From the NCBI GenBank assembly GCA_018971835.1, contig JAGWZW010000021.1, positions 1-46,443 of the forward strand: a stretch of 46,443 nt of DNA, in the 5' to 3' direction. A model generated the notes under the pieces. That model was not told the origin of the DNA. It worked only from the letters and a program-made list of their open reading frames with translations, and did not search any database. Made by a program: the position numbers and the translations under genes. Shown here piece by piece: positions 1-28,875 of the stretch (positions are counted from its first letter, which is position 1; the number at the start of each line of letters is the position of its first letter). The DNA is from Alphaproteobacteria bacterium. Lineage in GTDB: Bacteria > Pseudomonadota > Alphaproteobacteria > Micropepsales > Micropepsaceae.

Positions 1-246
1 GCCGAGATCAACGCCTTCCAGCCGGATATTGTGGGGCTTTCTGGCTTCCTGACGCTGGCCTTCGACTCGATGAAGGAAACGATCGCGGCCTTCGGTAACG
101 CGGGCATCCGCGACAAGTTCAAGGTGATGATCGGCGGCGGGCAGATCGACGAGACGGTGCGCGCCTATACCGGCGCCGATGCCTTCGGCGTCAACGCGGT
201 GGAAGCCGTCTCGCTCAGCAAGACCTGGATGGGAGTGGCCGCGTGA
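1..246 (+). CDS. Corrinoid (cobalamin-binding) methyl-carrier protein, C-terminal part
   Basis: The reading frame is open from the first base and ends at a TGA at 244-246, so only the last 81 residues are visible. The segment has the alternating strand/helix pattern of a B12-binding Rossmann domain: DIVGLSGFLT, then FKVMIGGGQID, then GADAFGVNAVEAV. These match the second half of the MtaC/MtbC/MetH-type cobalamin domain. The cobalt-ligating DxHxxG motif would lie upstream, outside the window. In corrinoid methyltransferase systems this small protein carries the methyl group on cobalt between two methyltransferases. The next gene starts inside its stop codon (TGATG) and encodes a UroD-fold methyltransferase, which supports the assignment. 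Substrate cannot be read from this fragment. Confidence 0.85.
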   Translation, partial: AEINAFQPDIVGLSGFLTLAFDSMKETIAAFGNAGIRDKFKVMIGGGQIDETVRAYTGADAFGVNAVEAVSLSKTWMGVAA

Positions 247-1547
247 TGGCGGAAGAGCAGGCGAAGGGCTTCCTGCCGCTGGCGCTGCAGCCCGACGAAG
301 GCTCGGCGGCCAAGCCGGCCTTCGATGCGCGCTGGAAGCGGCTGATGGACTGCGTCGAAGGCCGCATGCCCGACCGGCTTCCGGTGGCGCTGTATGCGAC
401 CTTCTGGCTGGCGAAATACGGCGGGATCAGCTGCAAGGAGCTGATGTACAATCACGAAAAGACCAAAGAGCTGGCGGAGCGCGCCACGCTGGAACTCGAT
501 CCGGACATCACAACCGGCGGCATGGTGGCGGCCTGCATCTACGGTCCTTCGCTGGACGCGATGGACTTCAAGCAGCTGCAATGGCCGGGCCACGGTATCG
601 GCGACAACCAGCCCTATCAGTATCTCGACCGCGAATACATGCTGGGCGACGAGTATGATGAGTTCCTCTTCGATCCCACCGCGTTCTATCTGCGCAAATA
701 CCTGCCGCGCATCGGCGGCGTGTTCGAGGGCCTTCAGGAGATGCCCTATATGCCGGGCATGCACTATTTTCGGCTGATCGCGGGACTGCGCGGCTTTGCC
801 AATCCGAAAGTGCGCCAGGCGTTCGAGAACCTGTTCAAGGTGGCCGAGGAAGTGGATCGCATGGCCGGCCATAACGCGGAATTCGCCCAACGTATCACGG
901 CGCTCGGCTATCCGCGGGACGTCGGCGGCAACACCGTCTCGCCCTATGATTTCGTGGCGGATTATTTCCGCGGTGCGCGCGGCATGATGACCGACCTGTT
1001 CCGCAAGAAAGACAAGCTGCTGGCGCTGCTCGACAAGGCCCGCATCTTCCTGACCAAGCTGACCATCGACAATGCCAGGGCGGCCGGCCATCCCATCGTG
1101 ATGATTCCGATTCACTGGGCGCCGGATGCCTTCATGTCCGACAAGCAGTTCAAGGAATTCTACTGGCCGCCGTTCCGCCAGATGCTGCTAGACATGATCG
1201 ACGCCGGCATCGTGCCCATGCCGCTGTGGGAAGCCGATTGCACCAAGCGGCTGGAGATCATCGCCGATATTCCGAAGAACAAGGCGATCTACTGGTTCGA
1301 GCGCACGGACATGGTCAAGGCCTTTGAGGTTCTGGGCGATACGGTGTGCCTGCGCGGCAACCTCTCGCCCTCGATGCTGACCACCGGCACGCCGGACGAC
1401 GTCGACAAGGCGGTGCGTCATCTGGTCGAGAATGTCTTCAACAAGGGCGGGCGCCTGCTGCTCGACGCGGCCTTCGGCCTGCCGGACGAGACGCCGGTGG
1501 AGAACGCACGCGCCATGTTCGCGGCGGCGAGGAAATATGCCGGCTGA
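246..1547 (+). CDS. UroD-superfamily methyltransferase (candidate substrate:corrinoid methyltransferase)
   Basis: The 433-residue protein has the uroporphyrinogen decarboxylase fold signature. It opens with a conserved block (MDCVEGRMPDRLPVAL) and ends with the family's GGRLLLDAAFGLPDETP block followed by ENARAM. True HemE is about 350 residues and unlinked to corrinoid genes. The UroD superfamily also includes methyltransferases working with corrinoid proteins (MtaA/MtbA, the CmuA N-domain). Its place directly after a corrinoid protein and before a reactivase makes it the likely enzyme that moves a methyl group from a donor to cobalt. The Cys usually found in the C-terminal block (G-C-G-x-P in MtaA/MtbA-like proteins) is replaced, since the sequence reads AAFGLP. 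The classic HxC...C zinc site therefore looks incomplete. I use the ATG at 246 (TGATG overlap); a GTG at 243 is also possible. The methyl donor is unknown; methoxylated aromatics are inferred from the neighbourhood. Confidence 0.8.
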   Translation: MAEEQAKGFLPLALQPDEGSAAKPAFDARWKRLMDCVEGRMPDRLPVALYATFWLAKYGGISCKELMYNHEKTKELAERATLELDPDITTGGMVAACIYGPSLDAMDFKQLQWPGHGIGDNQPYQYLDREYMLGDEYDEFLFDPTAFYLRKYLPRIGGVFEGLQEMPYMPGMHYFRLIAGLRGFANPKVRQAFENLFKVAEEVDRMAGHNAEFAQRITALGYPRDVGGNTVSPYDFVADYFRGARGMMTDLFRKKDKLLALLDKARIFLTKLTIDNARAAGHPIVMIPIHWAPDAFMSDKQFKEFYWPPFRQMLLDMIDAGIVPMPLWEADCTKRLEIIADIPKNKAIYWFERTDMVKAFEVLGDTVCLRGNLSPSMLTTGTPDDVDKAVRHLVENVFNKGGRLLLDAAFGLPDETPVENARAMFAAARKYAG

Positions 1548-2226
1548 AGTCTCCCAGTTCGATGCGCTGAAGGCCGTGACGCGAACGCCGCAAGTGAGCT
1601 TGCGTTCGCCCACGGCGGTGAAGCTGCGCGAGCGCGCACAGGGCCTCGTGCGCGAGGAAGGGCTGGGCGAAAGCCGCTACGCTCTGCGCATCGTTCCGCT
1701 GGAGAAGGAAGACGACGGCTATCTGACGCTGGAGGGCGAGACGGTGTTCGCCCCTTGGCTGGTGCCGGCCAGCGGCCGGCTCACCGCGCTGGGCGTCGGG
1801 TTGGTCACCCTGGGGCCGGCGCTGGAAGCGCGCGTGCGCGCGTTGTTTGCGGAGAAGCAGGCGGCGCTGGCGCTGGCGCTCGATCAGTTCGCGGGAGAGC
1901 TTTTGTTCGCCACCGGAGCGCGGCTGGAAGTGCGGCTGCGCATGCTGGCCAAGCGCCAGGGCCTCAGCCTGTCGGGCGAACTGCATCCGGGCGATCCGGG
2001 GCTGGCGCTGGAGGCGCAGCAGAACCTGATGCGCTGGATGGCGCCCGATACGCTGGAGATTTCGCTGCACAACGGCCATCTGCTCAATCCGCTCAAGTCT
2101 GGCAGCGTGATCTTCGGCATCGGCGAAAATCTGCCGGCGGCGACGTGGTCGCGCTGCGATCTGTGCCCGTCGCGCGCCAAATGCGCCAAGGCCGAGCGGC
2201 GCCACGAGGCGGGAGTGCCGGCATGA
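1537..2226 (+). CDS. Stand-alone MetH activation-domain-like protein
   Basis: The 229-residue protein overlaps the upstream methyltransferase by 11 bp; the ATG at 1537 follows a GAGGAA ribosome site. Near the C-terminus, LLNPLKSGSVIFGIG resembles the P-x-K-S-x-S-x-x-x-GIG segment of the vitamin B12-dependent methionine synthase activation (AdoMet-binding) domain. It then ends with a cysteine cluster, C207-x2-C210-x5-C216, as in many stand-alone versions of that domain. In MetH this domain reductively remethylates inactive cob(II)alamin using AdoMet. A separate copy between a corrinoid methyltransferase and an iron-sulfur reactivase suggests a role in keeping the corrinoid active, or in docking the corrinoid protein to the reactivase. 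The AdoMet-binding residues are not obvious by eye, so the biochemical role is inferred. The cysteines may bind a metal or cluster. Confidence 0.68.
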   Translation: MPAEVSQFDALKAVTRTPQVSLRSPTAVKLRERAQGLVREEGLGESRYALRIVPLEKEDDGYLTLEGETVFAPWLVPASGRLTALGVGLVTLGPALEARVRALFAEKQAALALALDQFAGELLFATGARLEVRLRMLAKRQGLSLSGELHPGDPGLALEAQQNLMRWMAPDTLEISLHNGHLLNPLKSGSVIFGIGENLPAATWSRCDLCPSRAKCAKAERRHEAGVPA

Positions 2227-3956
2227 GTTCGGCGGTCTATTTCAGCGATGTGGACCGCACGGTTCAGGCGCGCGACGGCGAGACGATTTATGAAACCGCG
2301 CGGCGCGGCGCGGTGCGCATCGTCGGCGCCTGCGGCGGGCGCGGCACCTGCGGCAGCTGCATGGTGCGCGTGAACGGCAGCCGGAAATGGGAACGCGCCT
2401 GCCAGCTCAAGGCGGACGGCGAGGTGTCGGTGAAGATCGCACCGCGTTCGCTGGCGCGCGTGGTGCGGGCAGAAGCCGAAGGCGGCCACGAAGTACTGTT
2501 GCTCGACAGCGCCATCGAAACCCGCCAGATCGCGCCCACGGCGCCCAGCCTTTCCAATCCCGTCGCCGATGACGACAACGCCGCAGCAGGCCTCACCATG
2601 ATGCCGGAAGCGGCGCGGGCGCTGAGCGAGACGCTGCGCGCTTGCGGCTGGCAGGCGGAACTGCGCCTTCGCGATGGCCAGTTGATCGACGCGGTGGAAC
2701 CGGGCCGCCCGCTGCTGGCGCTGGCGGTGGACCTGGGCACCACCAATGTGGCGGGTTTCCTAATCGACCTGCGCACGGGCGAGCGCGTCAGCGGCGTCGG
2801 CATCGAGAATCCGCAAGTGGGATGGGGCGCGGACGTGATCGCGCGCATCAACGCCGCGGTGAAGGACCGGCAGGCCGAGGCGGACCTGACCGCCACCATC
2901 CGCACCGCACTGGCGGCGCTGGCGCATGATCTGGCGCTCGCCATCGGCGCACGCGCGCGCGATATCGTGGATGTGGCGATCTGCGGCAACACCGCGATGC
3001 ACCACCTGCTGCTGGGCCTTCCGGTCTATCAGCTCGGCAAGGCGCCGTTCGTGGCCAGTGTACGCGATGCGATGACGCTGCCGGCCGCGGCGCTGGGGCT
3101 TGGCGTCTCGCCGGGGGCAGACGTGCATGTGGCAGCCAATATTGGCGGCTTCGTCGGCGGCGATCATGTCACGGCGCTCTTGGCCACGCGCGAGCGCTGG
3201 CTGGGCGATGGCGTCAGCCTGGTGATGGACATCGGCACCAACACCGAAATCTCGGTGATCCAGAACGGCAGGATCCTCTCGGCGTCCTCGCCCTCCGGCC
3301 CCGCGCTCGAAGGCGGCAACATCAGCAGCGGCATGCGCGCGGCTGAAGGCGCCATAGAACGGGTCTGGCTCGAGGATGGCCGCCTCGCCATCGCCACCAT
3401 TGCGGAGAAGGAGCCCATCGGGCTGTGCGGCTCGGGCGTGCTGGACATGCTGGCGGCGGTGCATCAGGCCGGGATCATCCAGTCCGGCGGGCGCATACAA
3501 GCTGGCCACGCCGACGTGGTGACCGAAGGTGGCAAGTCGCTGATCCGCCTGGCGGATGAGGTGCTGGTGAACCAGCAGGACATCCGTGCCATCCAACTCG
3601 CCAAATCCGCCATTCGCACGGCCACGCAGATGCTGCTGGCCGAAGCAGGGCTGCAGGAAGCCGATGTGGACCGCTTCCTCATCGCCGGGGCCTTCGGTGC
3701 CTATATCTCGGTGGCAAGCGGCATCGCCACGGGCCTCTTCCCCGATCTGCCGCGCGAACGCTTCGAGCAACTGGGCAATGCGGCTGGCCTCGGCATCCGC
3801 CAGATGGCGGCCAGCCGCAGCGCGCGCATGCTGGCGCGGAAGATCGCCGCCGAGGCGCGCTATATCGAGCTGAGCGCGCGGCCCGGTTTCCAGCAGGCCT
3901 TTCTGGCCAACCTTGCCATTCCCGAAACGAATCCGCTTGTCAGGAGAGCATCATGA
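2223..3956 (+). CDS. Reductive activator of corrinoid enzymes (2Fe-2S + DUF4445/ASKHA)
   Basis: The 577-residue protein starts with a plant-type [2Fe-2S] ferredoxin domain. Cys37, Cys43 and Cys46 lie in a CGGRGTCGSC context, with a fourth at Cys60. After a linker comes a large ASKHA-type ATP-binding domain, with phosphate-loop-like motifs LAVDLGTTNVAG and LVMDIGTNTEIS and a late GAFGAYIS segment. This is the architecture of the RACE/RamA-like proteins that use ATP to reduce accidentally oxidised cob(II)alamin back to cob(I)alamin in corrinoid methyltransferase systems. It overlaps the previous gene by ATGA (2223-2226) and the next gene by ATGA. An active Co(I) cycle therefore seems to be needed by the operon. 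The electron donor is not visible. RamA itself has a 4Fe-4S domain, so this is the DUF4445 bacterial type. Confidence 0.9.
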   Translation: MSSAVYFSDVDRTVQARDGETIYETARRGAVRIVGACGGRGTCGSCMVRVNGSRKWERACQLKADGEVSVKIAPRSLARVVRAEAEGGHEVLLLDSAIETRQIAPTAPSLSNPVADDDNAAAGLTMMPEAARALSETLRACGWQAELRLRDGQLIDAVEPGRPLLALAVDLGTTNVAGFLIDLRTGERVSGVGIENPQVGWGADVIARINAAVKDRQAEADLTATIRTALAALAHDLALAIGARARDIVDVAICGNTAMHHLLLGLPVYQLGKAPFVASVRDAMTLPAAALGLGVSPGADVHVAANIGGFVGGDHVTALLATRERWLGDGVSLVMDIGTNTEISVIQNGRILSASSPSGPALEGGNISSGMRAAEGAIERVWLEDGRLAIATIAEKEPIGLCGSGVLDMLAAVHQAGIIQSGGRIQAGHADVVTEGGKSLIRLADEVLVNQQDIRAIQLAKSAIRTATQMLLAEAGLQEADVDRFLIAGAFGAYISVASGIATGLFPDLPRERFEQLGNAAGLGIRQMAASRSARMLARKIAAEARYIELSARPGFQQAFLANLAIPETNPLVRRAS

Positions 3957-4879
3957 CACAAACCACTGCCGAAGCTGCGGCCACCACCGCGCCGGAAAAG
4001 TTCCCGAATCTCAAGCTCATCGGTGAACGCATCAACCCCGGCTTCAAGAGCACGCGCGCGCTGTTCGACAATGAAGACCTTGCCGGCATCCAGGCCCTCG
4101 CGGTCAAGCAGGCCGAAGCCGGCGCCGCCTACCTGAACGTCAACATCGGTTCGCGCGCGATGACCGACCCAAACTGGATGGCCGAAGTCATCAAGGCGAT
4201 CCAGCAGGTGACGACACTGCCGCTCAGCTTCGACTTCCCCTCGAAGAAAGTGCAGGAAATCTGCCTGTCCAACTACGATCTTGCCAAAGCGAACGGCGCG
4301 CTGCCGATCGTCAACTCCATCACTGAGCATCCAGATCGTTGGGAGTTGATGGACCTCTACAAGGACCACAAGTTCAAGGTCATCGTCATGGCCTCGGAGC
4401 GCATGGAAGCCGGGCGCTGCGTCGGCAACAAGACTGCCGAGGAAATCTACCAGACGGCCAAGCGCTGCGCAGGGCGGCTGGTGAGCGATTACGGCCTGAC
4501 ACTGGACGATGTGTTCCTCGACATGTCGGTTTCCGCCATCATCGCGGACAAGGAGGGCCTCAACCGCTCCACGATCGAAGCGATCGCTCGCATCGGCGAC
4601 GATACCGAGATGAGGGGCGTGCACATGATGGGCGGGCTGTCCAACATCGGCCAGCAGATGCCGCCCAAGGCCGCGGACGGCTCGGAGCTGAAGCACAATC
4701 TGGAATGCGCCTTCCTGACGCTGACCGTGTCGCACGGCTTCGATTACATCCTGGCCACGCCGTGGAAGAACTATCATCCGTTGCCGGAGGATTCCTACAT
4801 TCTGCAGGTTTACCGGAAGTTTCTGGAGGCCAAAGGCAGCGATGCGCTGCGCGCCGTGAGAAAGTTCTACAAGGCATGA
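3953..4879 (+). CDS. Pterin-binding methyltetrahydrofolate:corrinoid methyltransferase
   Basis: This 308-residue protein belongs to the dihydropteroate-synthase-like pterin-binding TIM-barrel family. It has LIGERINPGFK at the start (the family's GER(I/T)N motif), AGAAYLNVNIGSR (the D/N-V-N pterin site), LPLSFDFPS, and ANGALPIVNSI. Relatives are AcsE/MeTr, MtvA-type proteins and the folate domain of MetH. These transfer a methyl group between the cobalt of a corrinoid protein and N5 of tetrahydrofolate. Linked to the corrinoid protein and UroD-type methyltransferase, the likely direction is methyl-Co(III) to THF, giving 5-methyl-THF. It overlaps both neighbours by ATGA, so translation is coupled through the operon. 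Folate biosynthesis FolP is excluded by context and by the GERIN rather than GILNVTPDSF motif. Confidence 0.88.
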   Translation: MTQTTAEAAATTAPEKFPNLKLIGERINPGFKSTRALFDNEDLAGIQALAVKQAEAGAAYLNVNIGSRAMTDPNWMAEVIKAIQQVTTLPLSFDFPSKKVQEICLSNYDLAKANGALPIVNSITEHPDRWELMDLYKDHKFKVIVMASERMEAGRCVGNKTAEEIYQTAKRCAGRLVSDYGLTLDDVFLDMSVSAIIADKEGLNRSTIEAIARIGDDTEMRGVHMMGGLSNIGQQMPPKAADGSELKHNLECAFLTLTVSHGFDYILATPWKNYHPLPEDSYILQVYRKFLEAKGSDALRAVRKFYKA

Positions 4880-6078
4880 CCAAGTGTAAAGCGTTTGCCG
4901 TCGTCGCGGACGGCTGGTTCGACGGCGAGGTGTTCCATCGCCAGCGGACCAGCCTGCGTATCGCGGGCGGCGTGATCGAGGACATCCAGCCCGGCGATTT
5001 CGGCGTCGAGGCGAAGCAGGCCGATCTGGCTGTCGCCCGCGTGCCGTTCCTGATGCCGGGCCTCGTCGATGCCCATGTGCATTTGTTCCTCGACGGCGGA
5101 CCAACCGATTTGGCTGTGCGCTCGGCGCATCTGAAGAAGGCGCTGGACGAGCTGACTGAAGCCGCGCGGCAAAGCGCCCGCGCCTCGGTGGCGGCAGGCG
5201 TGTCGCTGGTGCGCGATGCCGGCGACAAGCACGGTATCAACAACGCGATCCGTGCCGAGGCGAAAGAGCCCGGCTCCGGCTTGCCGCAGGTGCGCTCTGG
5301 CGGCATCGGCATCCGCGCGCCCAAGCGCTACGGCGCCTTCATGGCCACGGAAGTGGCCGATCAGGACACAATCCGCAAGACCACTGTGCGCCTTGCCCAT
5401 GAGAACGACGAGGTCAAGCTCATCCTCACTGGCATTATCGATTTCGAGGCCGGCGCGGTGACGGACGAGCCGCAATTCAACCTGGACGATGTGCGCCTGG
5501 TGGTCGAAACCGCGCGCGCCGAGGGCCGCAGCGTGTTCGCCCATTGCAGCGGCCTCAAGGGGCTTCAGATCGCCGCGGCGGCAGGCGTGGGCTCGATCGA
5601 GCATGGCTTCTTCATGACGCGCGGAGTTTTGGAAACCATGCTGAAGAACGACGTGGCATGGAGCCCGACCTTCAGCCCCGTGCACGCCCAATGGGCCAAT
5701 CCGGCGCCGATGAACTGGAGCGAACAGACCATCGGCAATCTGGCGCGCATTCTTGACAGCCATGCCGCGCATCTGAAGTTGGCCCATGAGATGGGCGTGA
5801 CGCTGCTGCTGGGCACCGATGCGGGCAGCATGGGCGTGGAGCATGGCAAGGCGATGCTGACCGAGATGCGCTGCTATCTGGATGCCGGGCTGCCGCTGGA
5901 GGCGGTGCTGCGGTCCGCCACGTCGGTGGCGCGGCAGCGCTTCGGCGAGGCGTATGCGCGGCTCGAAAAGGGCGCAGCGTTCGACGCTTTCGGCTATGCA
6001 CGCGATCCCGCAGAGGGTATCGAGGCGCTGGCCCGGCCATTGGCCGGCTGGCTTGGGGGCATCCCCGTATCGTTGTAG
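4876..6078 (+). CDS. Imidazolonepropionase-like amidohydrolase of unknown substrate
   Basis: The 400-residue protein is a metal-dependent amidohydrolase. It has the MPGLVDAHVHL motif (metal ligands His67 and His69), a later FAHCSG histidine, SIEHGF and the LLGTDAGS aspartate. This fits the binuclear or mononuclear cyclic amidohydrolase group that includes imidazolonepropionase and prolidase-like enzymes. It starts in an ATGA overlap with the methyl-THF methyltransferase and is followed by folD, so it is embedded in the C1 operon. No hydrolytic step is needed in the textbook methyl transfer route. It could act on a folate species (for example formyl or methenyl), remove an ester or amide from the methylated substrate, or clear a by-product. 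None of these can be decided from sequence. No signal peptide, so cytoplasmic. Confidence 0.8.
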   Translation: MTKCKAFAVVADGWFDGEVFHRQRTSLRIAGGVIEDIQPGDFGVEAKQADLAVARVPFLMPGLVDAHVHLFLDGGPTDLAVRSAHLKKALDELTEAARQSARASVAAGVSLVRDAGDKHGINNAIRAEAKEPGSGLPQVRSGGIGIRAPKRYGAFMATEVADQDTIRKTTVRLAHENDEVKLILTGIIDFEAGAVTDEPQFNLDDVRLVVETARAEGRSVFAHCSGLKGLQIAAAAGVGSIEHGFFMTRGVLETMLKNDVAWSPTFSPVHAQWANPAPMNWSEQTIGNLARILDSHAAHLKLAHEMGVTLLLGTDAGSMGVEHGKAMLTEMRCYLDAGLPLEAVLRSATSVARQRFGEAYARLEKGAAFDAFGYARDPAEGIEALARPLAGWLGGIPVSL

Positions 6079-6109
6079 AGAGCAGCACGGAAATCTGAGG
6101 AGAGGCGCG

Positions 6110-6994
6110 ATGAGCGCGAAGATCATCGACGGCAAGGCGTTTGCGGCAGGGCTCAAGGGGCGGGTGAGCGAAGAAACCGCGCGCCTGAAAAGGGAACACG
6201 GCCTGGTGCCGGGCCTGGCCACCGTGCTGGTAGGCACGGACCCCGCCAGCGAAGTCTATGTCCGCAACAAGAACAAGACTGCCGAGGCCGTCGGCTTCAA
6301 GTCGGTGAGCCATCATCTGCCGGAAACGGCCAGCGAGGCCGAAGTGCTGGAGATGGTGCGCGCGCTCAACGCGGACCGGGGCGTGCACGGCATCCTGGTG
6401 CAAATGCCGCTGCCCAAGCAGGTGCGCGAGGCCGCGGTGCTCGACACCCTCGATCCGGCCAAGGATGTGGACGCGCTGACGCCGACCAATGCAGGCCTGT
6501 TGCTCAGCGGCCGGGCCAAGCTCGTCTCCTGCACGCCGATGGGCGTGATGATGCTCCTGAAGGAATATGTGGGCGACATCGCGGGAATGGACGCGCTGGT
6601 GATCGGCCGCTCGCTGCTGTTCGGCAAGCCGGCGGCGCAGCTGCTGCTGGCGGCCAACGCCACGGTGACGATGGCCCATTCCAAAACGCGCGATCTGCCG
6701 GCGGTGGCGCGGCGGGCGGATATCCTGGTGGCCGCCATCGGCCGACCGGAATACGTCAAGGGCGACTGGGTGAAACCCGGCGCCACGGTGATCGACGTCG
6801 GCATCAACCGCGTCGATACGCCGGATGGCAAATACAAGATCGTAGGCGACGTCGCCTATGACGAGGTGGCCAAGGTGGCCGGCGCGATCACGCCGGTGCC
6901 CGGCGGCGTCGGCGCCATGACCATCGTCTGCCTGATGCGCAACACCCTGATCGCCGCCTGCGAGCAGACCGGCGTGGCGATCCCGGCGATCTGA
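6110..6994 (+). CDS. folD: Bifunctional methylene-THF dehydrogenase / methenyl-THF cyclohydrolase
   Basis: This 294-residue protein is FolD. Tyr50 and Lys54 sit in SEVYVRNKNK at the positions of the catalytic pair in E. coli FolD. Next comes GILVQMPLP, the CTPMGVM substrate loop, VIGRSLLFGKP for NADP binding and TPVPGGVGAMT near the end. The enzyme converts 5,10-methylene-THF to 10-formyl-THF with NADP. The signature PGGVGPMT carries Ala269 instead of the usual proline. A GAGGAGAGG ribosome site precedes the ATG at 6110, 31 bp after the amidohydrolase. It is probably the last gene of the operon and would oxidise C1 units released by demethylation. No metF (methylene-THF reductase), which is needed to link methyl-THF to methylene-THF, is in the window; it may lie upstream or elsewhere. 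Confidence 0.93.
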   Translation: MSAKIIDGKAFAAGLKGRVSEETARLKREHGLVPGLATVLVGTDPASEVYVRNKNKTAEAVGFKSVSHHLPETASEAEVLEMVRALNADRGVHGILVQMPLPKQVREAAVLDTLDPAKDVDALTPTNAGLLLSGRAKLVSCTPMGVMMLLKEYVGDIAGMDALVIGRSLLFGKPAAQLLLAANATVTMAHSKTRDLPAVARRADILVAAIGRPEYVKGDWVKPGATVIDVGINRVDTPDGKYKIVGDVAYDEVAKVAGAITPVPGGVGAMTIVCLMRNTLIAACEQTGVAIPAI

Positions 6995-7006
6995 AGGCGG
7001 CCCGGT

Positions 7007-7915
7007 TCAGGCCGGGCGCCCGCAGGTGCGCACGATACCGAGGAAGTTGCGCTCTACGGGCGAGACGATCCTGCTGCGCGCCAGCAGCAGCACCTCGGTC
7101 TTGATCCGGGTGCCCTCGATCGGCCGCAGCACAAAGGCGCCGGTCGAGACGGCCGGCGGCAGATATGGAATCACGCTCACACCCAGCCCGGCGCCGACCA
7201 GCCCCAGTGCGCTCATCACGCTACCGGTCTTGAGTGCGATCCGGGGTGAGAAGCCCGCCTGCTCGCAAAGCTGAAACAGGCTGGCCATCAGCCCGATCCC
7301 CGGCGAATCCGGCAGGACGACGAACTTCTCCTCCTGCAGCGCCGACATGGGAACGCGGCGGCGGCGGGCCAGCGGATGCCCGGCCGGCAGCGCCACCACC
7401 AGCGGCGACTGCGCAAAGCGCTCCTGCTTGAGGCCCGGCGGCAGCGCGCCGATCGGCCCGCGCAAGAAGGCAATGTCGAGCCGCTGGTCCTGCAGCGCGC
7501 TCATCAGCTCTTCGACCGTATTCTCATGCATGGTGAGCGCCACTGCCGGATAGGCGGCGCGAAAGCGCTGCAGCACGGTGCTGAGCCGCGGCTCGAAGAC
7601 GGCTACGCCGGTGTAGCCGATATGCAGTTCGCCGGCGGTGCCGCGCTCGGCCTCCTGCGCCAGCCGGATGGCGCGCTGAGAAGCCAGCAGCAACTGTCTG
7701 GCCTCGGTGAGGAAGACTCGACCGGCCTCTGTCAGCTCGATGCGGCGGTTGGCGCGGCGAAAGAGCTGGACGCCGAGTCGCGTTTCGAGCGCCCGGATCT
7801 GCTGGCTGAGGGCGGGCTGGGCGATGCCCAGCTGCTCCGCCGCGCGGCCAATATGCTGCGTCTCGGCGGCAGCGACGAAATGGCGGAGGGCGCGGGTGTG
7901 CATTGGCCAATCCAT
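7007..7915 (-). CDS. LysR-family transcriptional regulator
   Basis: The 302-residue protein has the LysR N-terminal winged helix-turn-helix (RALRHFVAAAETQHIGRA followed by AEQLGIAQPALSQQIRALE). A periplasmic-binding-protein-like inducer domain follows. It resembles the group regulating aromatic catabolism (CatM/BenM-like), judged only from overall sequence. It is transcribed divergently from the UbiD-type decarboxylase gene across an AT-rich 84-bp gap containing a T-N11-A dyad at 7944-7964. This is the usual arrangement for a LysR activator and its target. Start choice is uncertain: the ATG at 7915 gives an extra MDWP, while the ATG at 7903 gives the common MHTRALRHF start; neither has a strong ribosome site. 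Its 3' end lies 12 bp from the convergent folD. Confidence 0.88.
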   Translation of the reverse strand: MDWPMHTRALRHFVAAAETQHIGRAAEQLGIAQPALSQQIRALETRLGVQLFRRANRRIELTEAGRVFLTEARQLLLASQRAIRLAQEAERGTAGELHIGYTGVAVFEPRLSTVLQRFRAAYPAVALTMHENTVEELMSALQDQRLDIAFLRGPIGALPPGLKQERFAQSPLVVALPAGHPLARRRRVPMSALQEEKFVVLPDSPGIGLMASLFQLCEQAGFSPRIALKTGSVMSALGLVGAGLGVSVIPYLPPAVSTGAFVLRPIEGTRIKTEVLLLARSRIVSPVERNFLGIVRTCGRPA

Positions 7916-7943
7916 ATAATATTACTTATCAAACTATCAAATA

Positions 7944-7964
7944 TCCATAATCGATAACAATGGA
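7944..7964. promoter_or_regulatory. Candidate LysR operator (TCCAT-N11-ATGGA)
   Basis: Between the divergent lysR and ubiD-like starts, TCCAT and ATGGA form a 5-bp inverted repeat separated by exactly 11 bases, so the T-N11-A consensus of LysR boxes is present. The whole gap is AT-rich, unlike the GC-rich genes on either side. The site lies 36 bp upstream of the ubiD ATG and 29 bp upstream of the lysR start. It is seen directly in sequence; binding is inferred. Confidence 0.5.
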
Positions 7965-7999
7965 ATTCGGCGCTAGTTCTTTGCCGGTCTGGAGGTTCC

Positions 8000-9544
8000 A
8001 TGTCCGTCATCGACCACAAGGGGTTTCACGCGGCCACACCCAATGCCGCCACGGCAATGGGCTGGCGCGTGCCGCCGATCGACGATCTGCGCTCGGCGAT
8101 TGCCTGCCTCAAAGCGCATGACGGCCAGTACCGCGAGACGGATCATCCCGTCGATCCGGCGGGAGAACTGGCCGGTGTCTATCGCCATATCGGCGCGGGC
8201 GGCACGGTGATGCGGCCCACGCGGATCGGACCCTCCATGACCTTCAACAACGTCAAAGGCTATCCGGGCATGCGCGTGCATGTCGGTATGATGGCCAGCC
8301 GCAAGCGCGTCAGCCTGCTGCTGGGCGCGCCCGAGCGCGACCTCGGCAAGCAGATGGGGCAGGCAGTCAAATCGTTCATCCCCCCGGTGGTGGTGCCGGC
8401 GGACGAGGCGCCGTGCCGCGAGCAGGTCTTCCTGGCCGACGATCCGGATTTCGATCTGCGCACGCTGCTGCCGGCGCCCACCAACACACCGGAAGACGCC
8501 GGCCCCTATTTCTGCCTCGGCCTGGTGCTGGGCAGCGATCCCGAAGACCCTGCGATTTCGGACGTGACGATCCACCGGCTGTGCGTGCAGAGCCGCGACG
8601 AGCTTTCGATCTTCTTCGTGCCTGGCCGCCATATTGACGTCTTTCGCGCCAAGGCCGAGGCGGCCGGCAAGCCGCTGCCGGTGACCATCAACATGGGCCT
8701 CGATCCGGCGATCTATATCGGGGCCTGCTTCGAGGCGCCCACTACGCCCTATGGCTTCAACGAGTTGGGCGTGGCCGGCGGCCTGCGCGGTCGCCCGGTG
8801 GAGTTGGTCGAGTGCCTGACCATTCCGCAAAAGGCGATCGCGCGCGCCGAAATCGTCATCGAGGGCGAAATCCTGCCGAACAAGCGCGTGGCCGAGGACC
8901 AGAACACCCATAGCGGCAAGGCCATGCCCGAATTTCCCGGCTATACGGGCGATGCGCATCCGTCCCTGCCGGTGATCCGCGTCAAGGCGGTGACCATGCG
9001 CCGCCATCCGATCCTGCAGACGCTGGTGGGGCCGGGCGAGGAGCATGTCAGCCTGGCCGGCATTCCCACCGAAGCCAGCATCTACAATGCCGTGGAAAGC
9101 GCGCTGCCGGGGCTGCTCTGCAACGTCTATGCGCACAGCGCGGGCGGCGGCAAGTTCCTGGCGATCCTTCAGGTCGCCACGCGCCAGCTAAGCGACGAGG
9201 GCAAGCCGCGGCAGGCCGCGCTCATCGCCCTGGCGGCCTATCGCGAATTGAAGAACGTCATCCTGGTGGACGACGATGTCGATCCGTTCGACAGCAACGA
9301 CGTGCTATGGGCGATGCAGACCCGCTACCAGGGCGACAGATCCACGATCTTCATCCCCGGCGTCGCCGGCCATGTGCTCGATCCCACGCAGGTGCCGGAC
9401 TATTGCGCCACCATTCGCGCCAAGGGCACCTCGTGCAAGACGATCTTCGACTGCACCGTTCCGGTGGCGATGAAGGAACGCTTCCGCCGCGCCCAGTTCA
9501 TGGACGTCGATCCGCGCCCCTTCGCGCCGGACCTGTTCGCCTGA
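8000..9544 (+). CDS. UbiD-family prenylated-FMN-dependent (de)carboxylase
   Basis: The 514-residue protein belongs to the UbiD family. It has MTFNNVKGYPGMRVHVG in the N-terminal domain, the EIVIEGEILPNKR block at about residues 284-296 containing conserved glutamates of the prFMN active site, EFPGYTG, and the C-terminal DVDPFDSNDVLWAMQTRYQ segment typical of non-ubiquinone UbiD enzymes. Such enzymes reversibly decarboxylate aromatic or alpha,beta-unsaturated acids (4-hydroxybenzoate, gallate, vanillate, cinnamates and others). The gene stands alone behind a GGAGG site (7991-7995), divergent from a LysR regulator, so it looks like an inducible catabolic function rather than ubiquinone synthesis. 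The prenyltransferase UbiX that makes prFMN is not in the window. A specific substrate cannot be assigned. Confidence 0.88.
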   Translation: MSVIDHKGFHAATPNAATAMGWRVPPIDDLRSAIACLKAHDGQYRETDHPVDPAGELAGVYRHIGAGGTVMRPTRIGPSMTFNNVKGYPGMRVHVGMMASRKRVSLLLGAPERDLGKQMGQAVKSFIPPVVVPADEAPCREQVFLADDPDFDLRTLLPAPTNTPEDAGPYFCLGLVLGSDPEDPAISDVTIHRLCVQSRDELSIFFVPGRHIDVFRAKAEAAGKPLPVTINMGLDPAIYIGACFEAPTTPYGFNELGVAGGLRGRPVELVECLTIPQKAIARAEIVIEGEILPNKRVAEDQNTHSGKAMPEFPGYTGDAHPSLPVIRVKAVTMRRHPILQTLVGPGEEHVSLAGIPTEASIYNAVESALPGLLCNVYAHSAGGGKFLAILQVATRQLSDEGKPRQAALIALAAYRELKNVILVDDDVDPFDSNDVLWAMQTRYQGDRSTIFIPGVAGHVLDPTQVPDYCATIRAKGTSCKTIFDCTVPVAMKERFRRAQFMDVDPRPFAPDLFA

Positions 9545-9551
9545 ACAGGAC

Positions 9552-9920
9552 TTACTGCTTACCTTGTGCCAACGTCGCCGTGCAGGTGCCCCCCATCGGA
9601 TCGGTCACCGTCCAGCTGTCGCCGATCTTGCGCGCTTGGGAGGAATTGCAGACCTGTTTCTCGTTCGGTCCCGGCGCCGGATTGGTCTGATTGTAGCAGA
9701 CGTTGCTGCCGTCGTCCTTCCAGGTTCCGCTGCTCTGCGGATGCCCGGTCGGTACGACGGTGAAGCTGCCGTCCTTTTCCACATAGATCTTCGTCACGTC
9801 GCCATTGGCATATTTGCACATGACTGTGTTACCGAAATAGCCCGACATGTCGCCCGCGTAGACAGCGGGGGCGGCGGCCAGGCCGGCGAGGAGCATCAAA
9901 GAGACGATTGAAAGCTTCAT
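9552..9920 (-). CDS. Small exported cysteine-containing protein, unknown function
   Basis: The 122-residue protein starts with a clear signal peptide (MKLSIVSLMLLAGLAAAPAV, predicted cleavage after VYA). The mature part of about 100 residues has four cysteines (in VMCKYA, NVCYNQ, KQVCNS and GGTCTA), enough for two disulfides. It also has several short beta-type stretches such as VTKIYVEKDGSFTVV and SGTWKDDG. It looks like a small periplasmic beta-rich protein. A strong ribosome site (GGGAGGGAAC on the minus strand) precedes the ATG at 9920. It ends 7 bp from the convergent ubiD-like gene. I do not recognise a family and suggest no function. Confidence 0.75.
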   Translation of the reverse strand: MKLSIVSLMLLAGLAAAPAVYAGDMSGYFGNTVMCKYANGDVTKIYVEKDGSFTVVPTGHPQSSGTWKDDGSNVCYNQTNPAPGPNEKQVCNSSQARKIGDSWTVTDPMGGTCTATLAQGKQ

Positions 9921-9965
9921 TTCTGTTCCCTCCCTTATTATGGCGCCGGCGGATGAAATTGCCGG

Positions 9966-11072: not shown

Positions 11073-11257
11073 GTTGTTCTCGAAGCCGGCGTTGGCGGGT
11101 CATCAAGAATGGATCACGGCGCCTGGCCGTGCTTTGCCGGGGCGGCAGGAATTATATCCACAGGAGGCATTCGGAGGGCGCCGTCCGGGTTAGAGCCCGC
11201 TTGGTCGAATTGGTGCGCTGCAACATTAGGCGGATATAGATTTCAGCAAAATATGTC

Positions 11258-11274
11258 TGTAACATAACAATGTT
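11258..11274. promoter_or_regulatory. AT-rich dyad in the adh/araC divergent region
   Basis: The sequence AACAT-AACA-ATGTT (11261-11274) is a perfect 5-bp inverted repeat, 45 bp upstream of the araC start and 188 bp upstream of the alcohol dehydrogenase start. It overlaps TGTAACAT (11258-11265), an octamer that recurs in two other divergent promoter regions of this window (20214-20221 and, on the minus strand, 33149-33156). It is a plausible regulator site, but no binding protein can be named. The rest of the 247-bp gap (11073-11319) is AT-rich near araC and holds no other recognisable feature. Confidence 0.35.
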
Positions 11275-11319
11275 CTTGCAAAAAAATCTTAAAAAGACGG
11301 AGCGGGACGGGAGGGACGC

Positions 11320-12415: not shown

Positions 12416-12437
12416 TCACATCCGAAGGGGGGATGAC

Positions 12438-14930: not shown

Positions 14931-14948
14931 GCTTGCGGGAGGGCACTG

Positions 14949-15740: not shown

Positions 15741-15742
15741 GC

Positions 15743-20212: not shown

Positions 20213-20356
20213 ATGTAACATCACGGTTATATATTATATCTTTACAGCCGTCCGTTGGCAAGATGGTCGCAGGCCGCCATTCCGGGTGCCGGCATGACTT
20301 AAATCAAAGCGGCGGGGCCTCTCGAATCCGTATTGTTATATTTACAAACAGTTATA
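20213..20356. promoter_or_regulatory. Divergent ech/ligA control region with AT-rich repeats
   Basis: The 190-bp gap between the hydratase-lyase and ligA starts is strikingly AT-rich at both ends. Next to ech, ATGTAAC-N6-GTTATAT (20213-20232) is a near-perfect inverted repeat with one mismatch, and contains the octamer TGTAACAT. Next to ligA, GTTATA occurs at 20335-20340 and 20351-20356, exactly 16 bp apart, and also at 20226-20231. These look like binding sites for a dimeric regulator. Which protein binds is not shown by sequence. The ligA ribosome site AGGAGG (20356-20361) follows at once. Confidence 0.4.
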
Positions 20357-20367
20357 GGAGGATCATA

Positions 20368-20712
20368 ATGGCTGACCACGGGATACCGGGGACTACCATT
20401 TTCGACGGTGTCATGGCCCGGAAAGGCTATGCGCTCAACAAGATGTGCTACTCGTTCAACGATCCGGGTAATCGCGCCGCGTTTCTGAAGGACGAGGATG
20501 CTTACTGCGCCAAATACCACCTCACGGCGGAGCAGCGCGAGGCCGTACGGCACAAGAATGTGCTCGAAATGATCGCCGCCGGAGGCAATGTCTATTACCT
20601 GGCCAAGCTGGCGGGGATTTTCGGCCTCAACGTGCAGGATCTGGGCGCGCAGCAGACCGGCATGACGGTCGAAGCGTTCAAGGCGAAACTTCAGGAAGCG
20701 GGGAGGAACTGA
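20368..20712 (+). CDS. Protocatechuate 4,5-dioxygenase-type alpha subunit, copy 1
   Basis: The 114-residue protein is a LigA-family small subunit: GTTIFDGVMARKGYALNKMC, LTAEQREAVRHKNVLEMIAA and GGNVYYLAKLAGIFG are typical. It caps the active site of LigB in extradiol dioxygenases of the class III type. It is shorter than copy 2 in this window (131 residues) because its C-terminus stops soon after the conserved GMT motif. The ATG at 20368 has an AGGAGG site six bases upstream. Its stop overlaps the start of the beta subunit (TGATG). As a second, divergent ligAB pair next to the hydroxycinnamate genes, it may serve a different ring such as a methoxylated or hydroxylated protocatechuate, or be an inducible isozyme. 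Confidence 0.9.
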   Translation: MADHGIPGTTIFDGVMARKGYALNKMCYSFNDPGNRAAFLKDEDAYCAKYHLTAEQREAVRHKNVLEMIAAGGNVYYLAKLAGIFGLNVQDLGAQQTGMTVEAFKAKLQEAGRN

Positions 20713-21569
20713 TGGCCGAAGTTGTTGGCGGATTGGGGACGTCGCATGTGCCGGCCATCGGCAATGCCATTGCCAAGGGATTGCAGCAGGATCCGTACTG
20801 GAAGCCGTTTTTCGACGGCTTCATTGAGGCGCGGGCCTGGCTGAAGCGCATCAAGCCCGACGCGGTGGTGATGTTCTACAACGATCACGGGCTCAATTTC
20901 TTCCTCGACAAGATGCCGACCTTCGCCGTCGGCGCGGCGCCGCAGTATAACAATGCGGATGAAGGCTGGGGCCTGCCGGTCCTGCGCCCCTGCCGCGGCG
21001 ACGCCGAATTCTCCTGGCATCTGATCGAGGGCCTGGTCGGAGACGAATTCGACGTCACCACCTGCCAGGAAATGCTGGTGGATCACGCGTTTGTGGTGCC
21101 GCTTCAGCTGCTGTGGCCGGAGGGTGATGCGCCGCCGGTGGTGCCGGTCGCGGTGAACACGGTGCAGCACCCGCTGGCGTCGCCTGCGCGCTGCCTGAAG
21201 CTGGGCCGGTCGATCGGCCGGGCCATCGCCAGCTACAAGAAGGATATGCGCGTGCTGGTCATCGGCACCGGCGGCCTCTCGCACCAGCTCGACGGCGCCC
21301 GTGCCGGATTCATCAACAAGGAATTCGACATGGAGTGCATCGACAAGATCACGGCCAATCCCGAGGGGCTGATCAACTACACGGTGGATGACATCGTGCG
21401 GCTGTCCGGTACGCAGGGCGTGGAATTGCTGAACTGGATTGCGATGCGCGGCGCGCTTTTGGGCCGTGTATCCAAAGCGTTCTGCAACTATCACATCCCG
21501 ATCTCGAACACGGCTTCGGCATTGTTGGTTCTCGACAACGAGGCCGCCGAGGCACGCCGCGCGGCGTGA
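20712..21569 (+). CDS. Protocatechuate 4,5-dioxygenase-type beta (catalytic) subunit, copy 1
   Basis: The 285-residue protein is a LigB-type class III extradiol dioxygenase. Fe(II) ligands are apparent as His12 (GTSHVPAI), His59 (FYNDHG) and Glu238 (GVELLNW). The catalytic histidine is His191 (GTGGLSHQ). All match the spacing of SYK-6 LigB (His12, His61, Glu242, His195) within a few residues. It splits the aromatic ring of a catechol acid next to the hydroxyl pair with O2. It is translationally coupled to the small subunit just upstream. Compared with copy 2 it differs around residues 75-100 and at the C-terminus, which is why I do not assign protocatechuate firmly. Gallate or 3-O-methylgallate are the other natural substrates of this family. 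Confidence 0.9.
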   Translation: MAEVVGGLGTSHVPAIGNAIAKGLQQDPYWKPFFDGFIEARAWLKRIKPDAVVMFYNDHGLNFFLDKMPTFAVGAAPQYNNADEGWGLPVLRPCRGDAEFSWHLIEGLVGDEFDVTTCQEMLVDHAFVVPLQLLWPEGDAPPVVPVAVNTVQHPLASPARCLKLGRSIGRAIASYKKDMRVLVIGTGGLSHQLDGARAGFINKEFDMECIDKITANPEGLINYTVDDIVRLSGTQGVELLNWIAMRGALLGRVSKAFCNYHIPISNTASALLVLDNEAAEARRAA

Positions 21570-23869: not shown

Positions 23870-26089
<2,220 letters not shown>

Positions 26090-26090: not shown

Positions 26091-27082
26091 TGCGGACACG
26101 CAAGATCGGCCCATTCGAGGTTTCAGCCATCGGACTGGGCTGCATGAACCTCAGCCACGCTTACGGGACGCCTCCGCCTGCGGAAGTGTCCGCTGCGCTG
26201 CTGCATAGGGCGCTTGATCTTGGCTACACCTTCCTCGACACCGCGGCGCTTTACGGCTTCGGCACCAACGAAACGCTGATCGGAAGCACGCTGAAGGAAC
26301 GCCGCAGCGAATACGTGCTCGCCAGCAAATGCGGCATGACGGGCGTGAATGGCGTGCGCGTGATCGACGGGCGGCCGGAAACGCTGAAGCGGACCTGCGA
26401 CGAAAGCCTCGCTCGTCTGCAAACCGATGTGATCGACCTCTATTATCTGCACCGGCTCGACAAGACCGTGCCGATCGAGGAGAGCGTGGGCGGGCTGGCC
26501 GCTCTGGTGAAAGCCGGCAAGGTGCGCACCATTGGGCTTTCGGAAGTGTCCGGCGCCACCATCCGCCGGGCTCATGCCGTTCATCCCATTGCGGCGGTGC
26601 AGACCGAATATTCGTTGTGGACGCGAAATGTCGAATACGGCGTGCGGCAGGCCTGTGACGCGCTGAATATCGCGCTGGTCGCGTTCTCTCCTTTGGCGCG
26701 CGCTTTCTTGACCGGCAAGCTGCGCGACATCTCCGGCCTCGCGCCCAAGGATCTGCGCCGCGGCATGCCGCGCTTCCAGCCGCCGCATTTTGCTGAGAAC
26801 CTGAAGCTGCTGGACGGTTTTGAAGTGCTGGCGCGCGAGGCCGGCTGCACGATGGGGCAGCTAGCGCTGGGCTGGCTGCTGGCGAAGGGCGAAAACATCG
26901 TGCCCATACCCGGCACCACCAATATCAAGCACCTGGCAGAGAACGCCGGCGGCGCGGACGTGACGCTGAGCGTCGATATGGTTTCGCGCCTCGATGCGCT
27001 GATCAACGTGAAAACGGTCCACGGACCGCGCTATAATCCGGCCGCGCAGGCCGATATCGATACCGAGGAGGTTCCCCAATGA
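26090..27082 (+). CDS. Aldo/keto reductase embedded in the lig operon
   Basis: The 330-residue protein is an aldo/keto reductase of the Tas/YhdN type. The catalytic tetrad can be seen as Asp and Tyr in [11 protein letters not shown], Lys in VLASKCG and His in YYLHRLD. The NADPH site is at [15 protein letters not shown]. It starts at ATG 26090, which overlaps the ligC stop (TGATG), and its stop overlaps ligK by ATGA. It is not part of the standard protocatechuate 4,5-cleavage pathway. Possible roles are reduction of a reactive semialdehyde or an aromatic aldehyde such as vanillin, or a redox step on a side intermediate. None is shown by sequence. Confidence 0.85.
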
Positions 27083-27768
27083 GCGTGGTGGTCCGCAATA
27101 TCAAGCGGGTGGAGTCCGGCATTGTCGAAGGCTATGCCGGCATCGGCGTGGCGACGGTGCACGAGGCGCAGGGGCGCAAGGGCCTGCTGGCCCCCACTAT
27201 GCGGCCGATCTATCCGGGCGCGCGCATTGCCGGCACCGCGGTGACAGTGGAGCTGGCGCCCTGCGACAACTGGATGATCCACGTCGCGGTCGAGCAATGC
27301 CGGCCGGGCGATATTCTCGTCGTCGCGCCGACGTCCTATTCCGATGCCGGTTATTTTGGCGAGCTGCTGGCCTGTTCGCTTCAGGCGCGGGGCGTCAAGG
27401 GCCTCATCATCGACGCGGGCGTGCGCGACATCGCCGAGCAGAAGGAAATGGGTTTCCCGGTCTGGTCCAAGGCCGTCTCGGCCCAGGGCACGGTGAAGGA
27501 GACGCTCGGCAATGTGAATGTGCCGGTGGTGTGCGCTGGCCAGCTGGTGAAGCCCGGCGATCTCATTGTCGCTGACGACGACGGCGTGGTGGTGGTTGCG
27601 CGCAAGGAGGCCGAATCCATCCTCAAGGCCAGCAAGTCGCGCGAGGAAAAGGAAGCGGGCACGCGCGCGCGCCTGAAGGCGGGCGAACTGGGCCTGGATA
27701 TCTACAAGATGCGCGAGCGTCTGGCCGAGAAGGGCCTGAAATATATCGACGCGCCGGACGAGGATTGA
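27079..27768 (+). CDS. ligK: 4-carboxy-4-hydroxy-2-oxoadipate aldolase / oxaloacetate decarboxylase
   Basis: The 229-residue protein is a class II HMG/CHA aldolase, the RraA-like fold. It has [15 protein letters not shown], the key catalytic pair Arg116-Asp117 in [23 protein letters not shown] and [15 protein letters not shown]. LigK of SYK-6 is 228 residues. It cleaves 4-carboxy-4-hydroxy-2-oxoadipate to pyruvate and oxaloacetate with Mg2+ or Mn2+, the last step of the pathway. It overlaps the upstream reductase by ATGA and is followed by ligU after 15 bp. Confidence 0.95.
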
Positions 27769-27783
27769 TCGGGAGACGTTGCA

Positions 27784-28875
27784 ATGCAGAAGGCGATTGC
27801 CTGCGTGATGATGCGCGGCGGCACCTCGAAGGGCCTTTATTTCCTGGCTTCCGATCTGCCCGCGGATCAGGAAACGCGGGATCGCGTGCTGCTGGCGGCA
27901 ATGGGTTCGCCGGATATTCGGCAGATTGACGGCATGGGCGGCGCTCATCCGCTCACCAGCAAGATCGCAATCGTTTCTCCGGCCAGCCGGCCCGACGCCG
28001 ATGTCGATTACCTGTTCCAGCAGGTGATGGTGGGCGAGCCGCGCGTGGACGGTTCGCAGAACTGCGGCAACATCCTCGCCGGCATTGGCCCCTTCGCCAT
28101 CGAGCACGGGCTGGTAAAGGCCAAGGACGGCGTGACCGAGGTGCGCATCCACATGGTCAACACGAAGTCCCTTGCCGTGGCGAGCGTGCAAACCCCCAGC
28201 GGCAAGGTGGAGTATCAGGGTGAGGCGCGGATCGACGGCGTGCCCGGCACGGCGGCGCCGATTCCGATCGATTTTCTCGACGTCGCTGGTTCGAGCTGCG
28301 GCGCGCTCCTGCCCACCGGCAATGCGCGCGACGTGGTCGAGGGCATCGAGGTCACTTGCATCGACAATGGCATGCCGGTGGTGGTGATGCGCGCCTCCGA
28401 TTTCGACAAGACCGGTTATGAAAGCCCGGAGGAACTGGAAGCGGACGCAATGCTGAAGGCCAAGGTTGAAGCCGTTCGCCTGAAGGCCGGCCTGCTGATG
28501 AATCTGGGCGACGTCGCCCGGAAGACCGTGCCGAAGATGTGCCTGGTGGCGCCGCCGCGGGCCGGGGGCGCGATCTGCACGCGGAACTTCATTCCGCATC
28601 GCGTGCATGAAGCCATTGGCGTGTTCGGCGCGGTGAGCGTGGCCACGGCCTGCGTCACGCCCGGTTCGATCGGGGCCGAGGTGGCGGGGATCACGGACGT
28701 CGAGGCCGTGAAAAGCCTGGAGGTCGAGCACCCTACCGGTTTCTTCACTGTGGCAATGGACGTGAAGCTGGAGAAAGGGGCGGTGAAAGTGCGCCGCTCC
28801 GCGCTGCTGCGTACGGCGCGCAAGCTGATGGCAGGCGAGGTGTATGTCCCGGCAAGCGTGTGGAGCGGCAAGTGA
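27784..28875 (+). CDS. ligU: 4-oxalomesaconate tautomerase (PrpF family)
   Basis: The 363-residue protein is a PrpF-family isomerase. MMRGGTSKGLYFLASDLP is the N-terminal family motif, with DGMGGAHPLTSKIAIVS, SQNCGNILAGIGPFAIE (catalytic Cys region) and DVAGSSCGALLPTGN. In the ring-cleavage pathway, LigU/GalD converts the enol or keto 4-oxalomesaconate into the isomer used by the hydratase. The context (ligK before, ligJ soon after) separates it from PrpF of methylcitrate metabolism. A GGGAGA ribosome site precedes the ATG. Its stop overlaps the GTG start of the next gene by four bases. Confidence 0.93.
   Translation: MQKAIACVMMRGGTSKGLYFLASDLPADQETRDRVLLAAMGSPDIRQIDGMGGAHPLTSKIAIVSPASRPDADVDYLFQQVMVGEPRVDGSQNCGNILAGIGPFAIEHGLVKAKDGVTEVRIHMVNTKSLAVASVQTPSGKVEYQGEARIDGVPGTAAPIPIDFLDVAGSSCGALLPTGNARDVVEGIEVTCIDNGMPVVVMRASDFDKTGYESPEELEADAMLKAKVEAVRLKAGLLMNLGDVARKTVPKMCLVAPPRAGGAICTRNFIPHRVHEAIGVFGAVSVATACVTPGSIGAEVAGITDVEAVKSLEVEHPTGFFTVAMDVKLEKGAVKVRRSALLRTARKLMAGEVYVPASVWSGK

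Follow-up and report, generated by a model that had tools for sequence, protein, structure and literature searches.

A corrinoid-dependent methyl-transfer operon, probably for methoxylated aromatics, beside ring-cleavage genes in an alphaproteobacterium

Gene content of the operon

The window analysed here, 46,443 nucleotides from an alphaproteobacterium of the family Micropepsaceae, is the entire contig C150 (JAGWZW010000021.1) of a draft genome of 3.67 Mb in 162 contigs (completeness 96.7%, contamination 2.4%). Open reading frame (ORF) calling places seven tightly packed plus-strand genes within its first 7 kb (Table 1), with successive overlaps of 4, 11, 4, 4 and 4 bases and a 31-base gap before the last gene. 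Their Pfam matches at or above cut-off comprise B12-binding, URO-D, RACo_C_ter with Raco_middle and Fer2, Pterin_bind, Amidohydro_1 and both FolD domains. An earlier note, made from the sequence alone, had described these as seven closely spaced genes that pass methyl groups via a corrinoid protein to tetrahydrofolate (THF); the gene set is borne out by coordinates, Pfam, profile and fold matches, the corrinoid gene being cut by the contig start, and the full parts list supports the proposed transfer. The layout is not a product of chance, because the order corrinoid protein, UroD-fold enzyme, MetH-like protein, activase and pterin enzyme is complete in 43 of the 56 related loci with enough flanking sequence.

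The corrinoid gene has no start codon in the window and runs off the start of C150. The last 100 bases of contig C114 are exactly the first 100 bases of the window, and C114 carries the 5' part of the gene; joining the two contigs gives a 220 amino acid corrinoid protein, so that the separate corrinoid protein characteristic of corrinoid O-demethylase systems is present (PF02310). The joined protein contains HGDLHDIGKN, which we take to be the type of cobalamin-binding motif found in this protein family. Contig C71 starts with a corrinoid end that is 98.9% identical over 182 bases and shares 36 bases with the end of C114, which makes a C114-to-C71 join the weaker alternative. At positions 1-1830 of C71 (locus L015), this near-identical corrinoid end is followed by a UroD copy and an activase fragment, a broken duplicate of the operon.

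The second gene encodes the proposed donor-specific methyltransferase (MT I). By far its strongest relative in the PDB is CdmB (9rui), which scores 119 bits with the single sequence and 192 bits with a 50-row profile, for which the runner-up is an ordinary UroD at E 3e-9. In the CdmB report, CdmB is grouped near the O-demethylases MtoB, MtvB, OdmB and VdmB, with CmuA, MecE and MecC diverging early (PMC13222342); taking the branch from that published grouping, MT I would probably lie nearest to the O-demethylase/CdmB branch. The predicted model of MT I (pLDDT 93.8) shows the barrel of UroD and MtbA (best Z 26.0, root-mean-square deviation 3.6, 319 residues), and CdmB was not among the Foldseek and VIA matches listed for it.

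Four residues of MT I (H291, E330, C333 and E353) are invariant in all 50 family rows, whereas our reading of the profile alignment places W, Q, H and D at the equivalent positions of CdmB, an enzyme described as zinc-free (PMC13222342). In UroD-superfamily methyltransferases, sulfur donors are associated with a His-Cys-Cys zinc site, and oxygen donors with sites in which carboxylates replace Cys (PMC10418091). No His-Cys-Cys pattern was recognised in the 50-row alignment; if its His, Glu and Cys bind metal, the site of MT I would be in line with an oxygen donor. E-x14-E-x20-H, a putative zinc motif of acetogen enzymes, occurs in none of the 50 rows, a result to which we give no weight.

The third gene by itself finds no match in Pfam. 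A profile of 45 relatives matches the MetH activation protein TM0269 (1j6r) at E 4.2e-8, and the predicted model (pLDDT 93.8) shares the TM0269 fold (Foldseek 1j6r, E 1.0e-10); by profile and predicted fold, the product is a stand-alone MetH reactivation domain. Its C-x2-C-x5-C tail is invariant in the 45 rows. The PGY of TM0269 is replaced by PGD in the profile, so that the Tyr, presumably part of the S-adenosylmethionine (AdoMet or SAM) motif, is missing, and the protein may help the ATP-driven activase rather than use SAM. The activase itself matches RACo (PDB 3zyy, 220 bits), as is characteristic of 2Fe-2S RACE activases, and the pterin-binding enzyme (MT II) matches methyl-THF:corrinoid methyltransferases (PDB 2yck and 4o0q) and MetH, in keeping with methyl transfer to THF. 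The amidohydrolase could act on the fate of formyl-THF. Pfam found no MttB-type, MtmB-type or GCV_T domain among the operon proteins; MttB-type betaine demethylation was rejected on this ground, and the operon lacks the domain of LigM/DesA-type demethylases.

Table 1. Features of the window, with positions in window coordinates.
Feature	Position	Strand	Evidence
Corrinoid protein, C-terminal 81 amino acids	1..246	+	PF02310, 32.7 bits; N-terminal part on C114 (L013, 19484-19999)
UroD-fold methyltransferase (MT I), proposed donor-specific	243..1547	+	PF01208, 77.4 bits; CdmB best PDB match; UroD/MtbA fold
Stand-alone MetH-reactivation-domain-like protein, invariant C-x2-C-x5-C tail	1537..2226	+	Profile match to 1j6r; model and Foldseek
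2Fe-2S RACo-type ATP-dependent corrinoid activase	2223..3956	+	PF14574, PF17651, PF00111; 3zyy, 220 bits
Pterin-binding methyltransferase (MT II), methyl-corrinoid:THF	3953..4879	+	PF00809, 51.1 bits; PDB 2yck, 4o0q and MetH matches
Amidohydrolase, conserved in operon	4876..6078	+	PF01979, 74 bits; 41/56 loci with enough flank
FolD, methylene-THF dehydrogenase/methenyl-THF cyclohydrolase	6110..6994	+	PF02882, PF00763; NF010785, 437.6 bits (cut-off 396)
LysR-type regulator adjoining operon	7007..7915	-	PF03466, PF00126
UbiD-type decarboxylase, VdcC-like	8000..9544	+	PF01977; NF041204, 400.4 bits (below VdcC cut-off 650)
LigA and LigB pair, protocatechuate 4,5-dioxygenase	20263..21569	+	PF07746, PF02900; NF009918, 193.6 bits (cut-off 161); NF009901, 472.9 bits (cut-off 290)
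Second LigA and LigB pair	23870..25140	+	PF07746, PF02900; NF009903, 461.5 bits (cut-off 317)
LigK aldolase and 4-oxalomesaconate tautomerase	27079..28875	+	TIGR02798, 350 bits (cut-off 304.5); NF033377, 547.9 bits (cut-off 440)

Recurrence and neighbourhoods in other genomes

A scan of 84,980 species genomes confirmed 126 relatives of MT I, the best 80 of which were examined and represent 79 distinct loci. These lie mainly in alpha- and betaproteobacteria, with some in gammaproteobacteria, three in Geobacter-type genomes and one in a member of the Terriglobia (Acidobacteriota). Named isolates among the carriers are Azospirillum sp. TSO22-1, Aromatoleum anaerobium LuFRes1, Paramagnetospirillum caucaseum SO-1 and Thauera phenylacetica B4P, in whose record the contig stops just past the UroD gene. 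Several of the carrier genera are, as we understand them, anaerobic aromatic degraders. Where the flanking sequence suffices, the corrinoid gene recurs in 58 of 68 loci, the MetH-like gene in 56 of 74, the activase in 54 of 68 and the pterin enzyme in 51 of 64; FolD does so in 4 of 52 (6 of the 79 loci have it anywhere in the stretch). At some loci a UroD copy stands alone or has just a corrinoid gene beside it, and a single genome may hold several, a pattern that suggests methyltransferases for different donors drawing on a common reactivation set. The operon thus appears to be a proteobacterial variant of known corrinoid systems and is not a lone curiosity.

A tree of 86 MT I proteins mixes taxonomic groups, as would be expected from gene transfer, with bootstrap support not fully settled and several long branches. 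The C150 copy pairs (100/100) with that of locus L024, its closest relative (82%), where the order of genes 1 to 6 is preserved. Within its own order, one of 96 genomes has an MT I homologue at E 1e-20, and in a sample of the class one of 385 has one at E 1e-60, in both cases the present genome; the operon is therefore rare and patchy. A plasmid search with the UroD protein gave no match.

The surroundings of the UroD gene also recur. A MetV-MetF fusion is present in 45 of the 79 loci; in 33 of 60 it lies upstream of the UroD gene by no more than 3.5 kb. Rieske genes that we call VanA-like (our own label, the proteins reaching no NCBIfam cut-off) occur in 16 of the 79, on the operon's strand in 12 of these, and VanB-like reductases occur in nine (six with at least 35% identity). 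LigA and LigB were each found in five of the 79 loci and a 4-hydroxybenzoate hydroxylase (PobA) equivalog in one (L071). Across 50 genomes, 47 VanA-like copies in about 213.6 Mb would predict 0.2 stretches carrying one, and 14 of the 50 do. This background covers 50 of 65 genomes, 15 (mostly with short contigs) having been dropped after the Rieske-bearing loci were already known; because several genomes are close kin (e.g., Sulfuritalea) and genome-wide and local matches were scored with different cut-offs, the Poisson value of 1.2e-21 is overstated. At L024, a XylR_N/V4R sigma-54 activator precedes the operon, and in L072 (80%) and L025 (67%) HdrA comes after the corrinoid operon.

Ring-cleavage island and one-carbon genes of the genome

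The aerobic ring-cleavage island described in the earlier note is real: LigA, LigK and 4-oxalomesaconate tautomerase all exceed curated cut-offs, and two LigB-type subunits accompany them (Table 1). An amidohydrolase at 30784-31668 resembles 4-sulfomuconolactone hydrolase (226.6 bits, cut-off 500) and is perhaps the island's lactonase. Between the island and the housekeeping genes, at 33786-39654, lie an aminotransferase, an aldehyde dehydrogenase, a glutamine-synthetase-type gene and a second aminotransferase, resembling a cluster for amine use. The asparaginase at the housekeeping end is 72% identical to that of a congener, which assigns C150 to the genus and led us to reject the reading of C150 as a contaminant contig. 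Rfam gave no match at gathering score in the window, L013 or L121.

The methyl-THF that such an operon would produce may have an outlet elsewhere in the genome. On contig C80 (locus L121, C80:30000-48000), a minus-strand run at 6893-15062 encodes HdrA, MvhD, MetV, MetF and HdrCB, together the full gene set of an Hdr-type methylene-THF reductase, and a XylR-type regulator 87% identical to the L024 activator adjoins it (both within 5107-15062). The HdrA has 1525 amino acids with a GltD-like insert, of a kind described for Moorella in a study of the HdrCBA-MvhD-MetVF reductase of Moorella and Sporomusa (PMC9430772). That reductase has the same components as the C80 run, including the HdrCB that is fused on C80; the C80 run differs in its setting, a genome with heme-copper oxidases (C32 and C14) in which the oxidative direction would be expected. 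A nitric oxide reductase is encoded on C112. By gene content, the step from methyl-THF to methylene-THF is provided for in acetogen-like form, and a search for metF, which the earlier note had proposed, finds metF genes besides the MetVF run. FTHFS was not found in the draft genome, so formyl-THF would go to biosynthesis or hydrolysis. CobN was likewise not found in the draft genome and CobS was, and so the corrinoid may come from outside the cell.

On C114 (L013, C114:38673-58672), positions 10555-16985 encode an LLM-class oxidoreductase and an NADPH:F420 reductase (npdG, 175.3 bits, cut-off 149.8), together with ORFs that look by eye like cofE, cofD, cofC and fbiC. This F420 synthesis cluster is located upstream of that contig's VanA-like and corrinoid genes, at a distance of a few kb. 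An F420-dependent Mer-like route for methyl-THF was dropped: the LLM protein scores 72.7 and 79.9 bits against Mer cut-offs of 348.7 and 276, and metF and MetVF exist.

The genome holds four UroD copies, on C150, C71, C6 and, as a distant homologue, C70. On C6 (L016, 3132-7986) a VanA-like Rieske gene directly precedes the UroD copy; further on come an EthD-domain gene and a hydrolase that resembles PhlG (108.8 bits, cut-off 600). The C70 homologue (30% identity) lies a few kb from a LigM equivalog (both in L017, C70:1-20000, at 4958-6316 and 11876-13270); no curated model matched the homologue, and its neighbours include no recognised corrinoid gene. A further VanA-like gene, on C114, lies 52 bases upstream of the corrinoid gene of the operon and immediately precedes it, and Rieske genes are also found on C121, C47 and C105. 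The G+C content of C70, C71 and C80 (0.63 to 0.67, with 0.575 for part of C71) is compatible with the same organism.

Methyl donor, alternatives and place among known systems

The operon resembles MtvABC, OdmABD and MtoABC in having a UroD-superfamily MT I, a separate corrinoid protein, a pterin-type MT II and a 2Fe-2S RACE activase, and in the bacterial systems of this kind the methyl group ends on THF, as proposed here. It differs in sitting in O2-respiring or facultative proteobacteria beside O2-dependent ring-cleavage genes, and in adding the stand-alone MetH-reactivation-like protein and the amidohydrolase; we know of no acetogen O-demethylase operon with these two genes. CmuAB of aerobic methylotrophs likewise performs corrinoid-to-THF transfer in aerobes. 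LigM and DesA also convert methoxyaromatics to methyl-THF and need no corrinoid; LigM belongs to the GcvT family, which lies outside the operon. CdmBCA of Acetobacterium dehalogenans has the same three-part layout (PMC13222342).

Taken together, the operon encodes a putative corrinoid-dependent methyl-transfer system whose donor is probably one or more methoxylated aromatics. We favour this donor because of the full methyl-transfer parts list, the proximity to CdmB, the H/E/C site, the VanA-like and Lig neighbours, the MetV-MetF fusions and the shared XylR-type regulator. MT I would move a methyl group from an aryl ether to the Co(I) of the corrinoid protein, freeing a phenol, and the pterin-binding enzyme would hand it to THF. 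The RACo-type activase would restore Co(I) after oxidation, with the MetH-reactivation-like protein as a docking or electron-transfer partner. Methyl-THF would then be oxidised to methylene-THF by the Hdr-type MetVF of C80 and onward by FolD, while the phenol would enter the LigAB ring-opening route. Content, order, folds, recurrence and neighbourhood can be read from the sequence; from them we infer which donor is used, which way the methyl groups flow, that C80 and the operon are metabolically linked, and use at low O2.

Several observations weigh against this assignment. The earlier note had stated that the island has no vanAB or ligM, as if nothing else covered the demethylation step. The first point holds for the scanned ORFs of the window, 39 in number, among which Pfam found no Rieske or GcvT/LigM domain; genome-wide it fails, and the second point with it, since C70 carries the LigM equivalog (NF047885, 810.6 bits, cut-off 580), adjoined by a weakly MetF-like gene (43.5 bits, cut-off 293.7). 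The genome also has VanA-like Rieske genes, five in all (the weakest at 70 bits). The LigM and VanA-like genes partly supply what the note had said would overturn its proposal, and with them the genome probably has no need of the operon for vanillate in air. The best NCBIfam model for the VanA-like proteins is methylsterol monooxygenase (84 to 107 bits, cut-off 600), and none of the remaining 63 of the 79 stretches carries a VanA-like gene. The closest characterised structure, CdmB, is described as acting on haloalkanes and not on methoxyaromatics (PMC13222342). The draft assembly has 2.4% contamination, and a same-cell origin of C6, C70 and C80 is assumed. What stands of the O-demethylase proposal is the probable position of MT I near the O-demethylase/CdmB branch and the ring-cleavage and VanA-like neighbours. 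Given LigM and the VanA-like genes, the operon is probably a second, O2-independent route, its likeliest role being at low O2 or on other methoxyaromatics.

Among the alternatives, the same machinery might serve another donor, such as a methylated amine, a sulfide, an aliphatic ether or a larger natural product. The presence of several UroD copies per genome (here four) suggests several donors, and in the curated-model scan the corrinoid fragment is weakly similar to MtbC and MtgC; the absence of MttB- and MtmB-type domains from the operon proteins and of a recognisable His-Cys-Cys pattern makes us regard this as unlikely. A haloalkane donor such as chloromethane, by analogy with CdmB of Acetobacterium and CmuA of aerobic methylotrophs, strikes us as quite unlikely. 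CdmB is the best PDB relative of MT I, and with an amidohydrolase and FolD next to its methyltransferases the operon is reminiscent of cmu clusters, which contain hutI and folD. Against this, the invariant H, E and C of the MT I family are absent from CdmB, and the neighbours are ring-cleavage genes and not halide genes. Membership in the CmuA family was rejected: MT I reaches 33 bits with the MtaA/CmuA model TIGR01463, far below its cut-off of 235.4, and its gene is separate from the corrinoid gene, whereas CmuA fuses the two domains (PMC13222342).

We consider it very unlikely that the system runs in reverse, methylating an aromatic ring as EmtABCD does in anaerobic estrogen degradation. Sterolibacterium records are among the 79 loci, and the Emt system, which is found in denitrifying bacteria, likewise has a RACE-like activase near its corrinoid protein (PMC7448270). 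Its catalytic subunit EmtA, however, is MtmB-related and uses SAM as methyl donor (PMC7448270), the ground on which estrogen-type methylation was rejected, whereas the subunit here is of the URO-D type, and a pterin enzyme together with MetVF and FolD suggests THF. The contig break inside the corrinoid gene, the near-identical corrinoid end beside a mere activase fragment on C71 and the operon's isolation within the order might suggest that it was acquired and is now decaying, or is misassembled, and serves no function here. This is scarcely credible with its ORFs in the window intact, C150 belonging to the genus and L024 keeping the order of genes 1 to 6.

Beyond a probable methoxyaromatic donor, a bolder proposal, which we advance tentatively and think somewhat improbable, is that O2-respiring proteobacteria run an acetogen-type methoxydotrophy in which corrinoid O-demethylation feeds an Hdr-type MetVF working backwards into the respiratory chain. 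LigM and Rieske enzymes would serve in air and the corrinoid route at low O2, and the MetH-like partner and amidohydrolase would distinguish this version, perhaps as an adaptation to O2. The earlier note called such a system unusual in an O2-using degrader; the same operon is thinly spread over the proteobacteria, and "unusual" may mean used when O2 is short.

Among the matches listed in a literature search, with most subscription papers outside its scope, titles and abstract openings described no such operon in proteobacteria. For Rhodopseudomonas palustris, the oxygenase VanAB is still invoked under anoxia in the literature (PMC12366328). How facultative proteobacteria remove the methyl groups of lignin aromatics without O2 is an open question, for which the operon is a concrete candidate in proteobacteria other than R. 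palustris. If the proposal is true, lignin methyl groups would be a source of energy and one-carbon units through a pathway regarded as characteristic of acetogens, and strains used for lignin valorisation could gain an O2-free demethylase.

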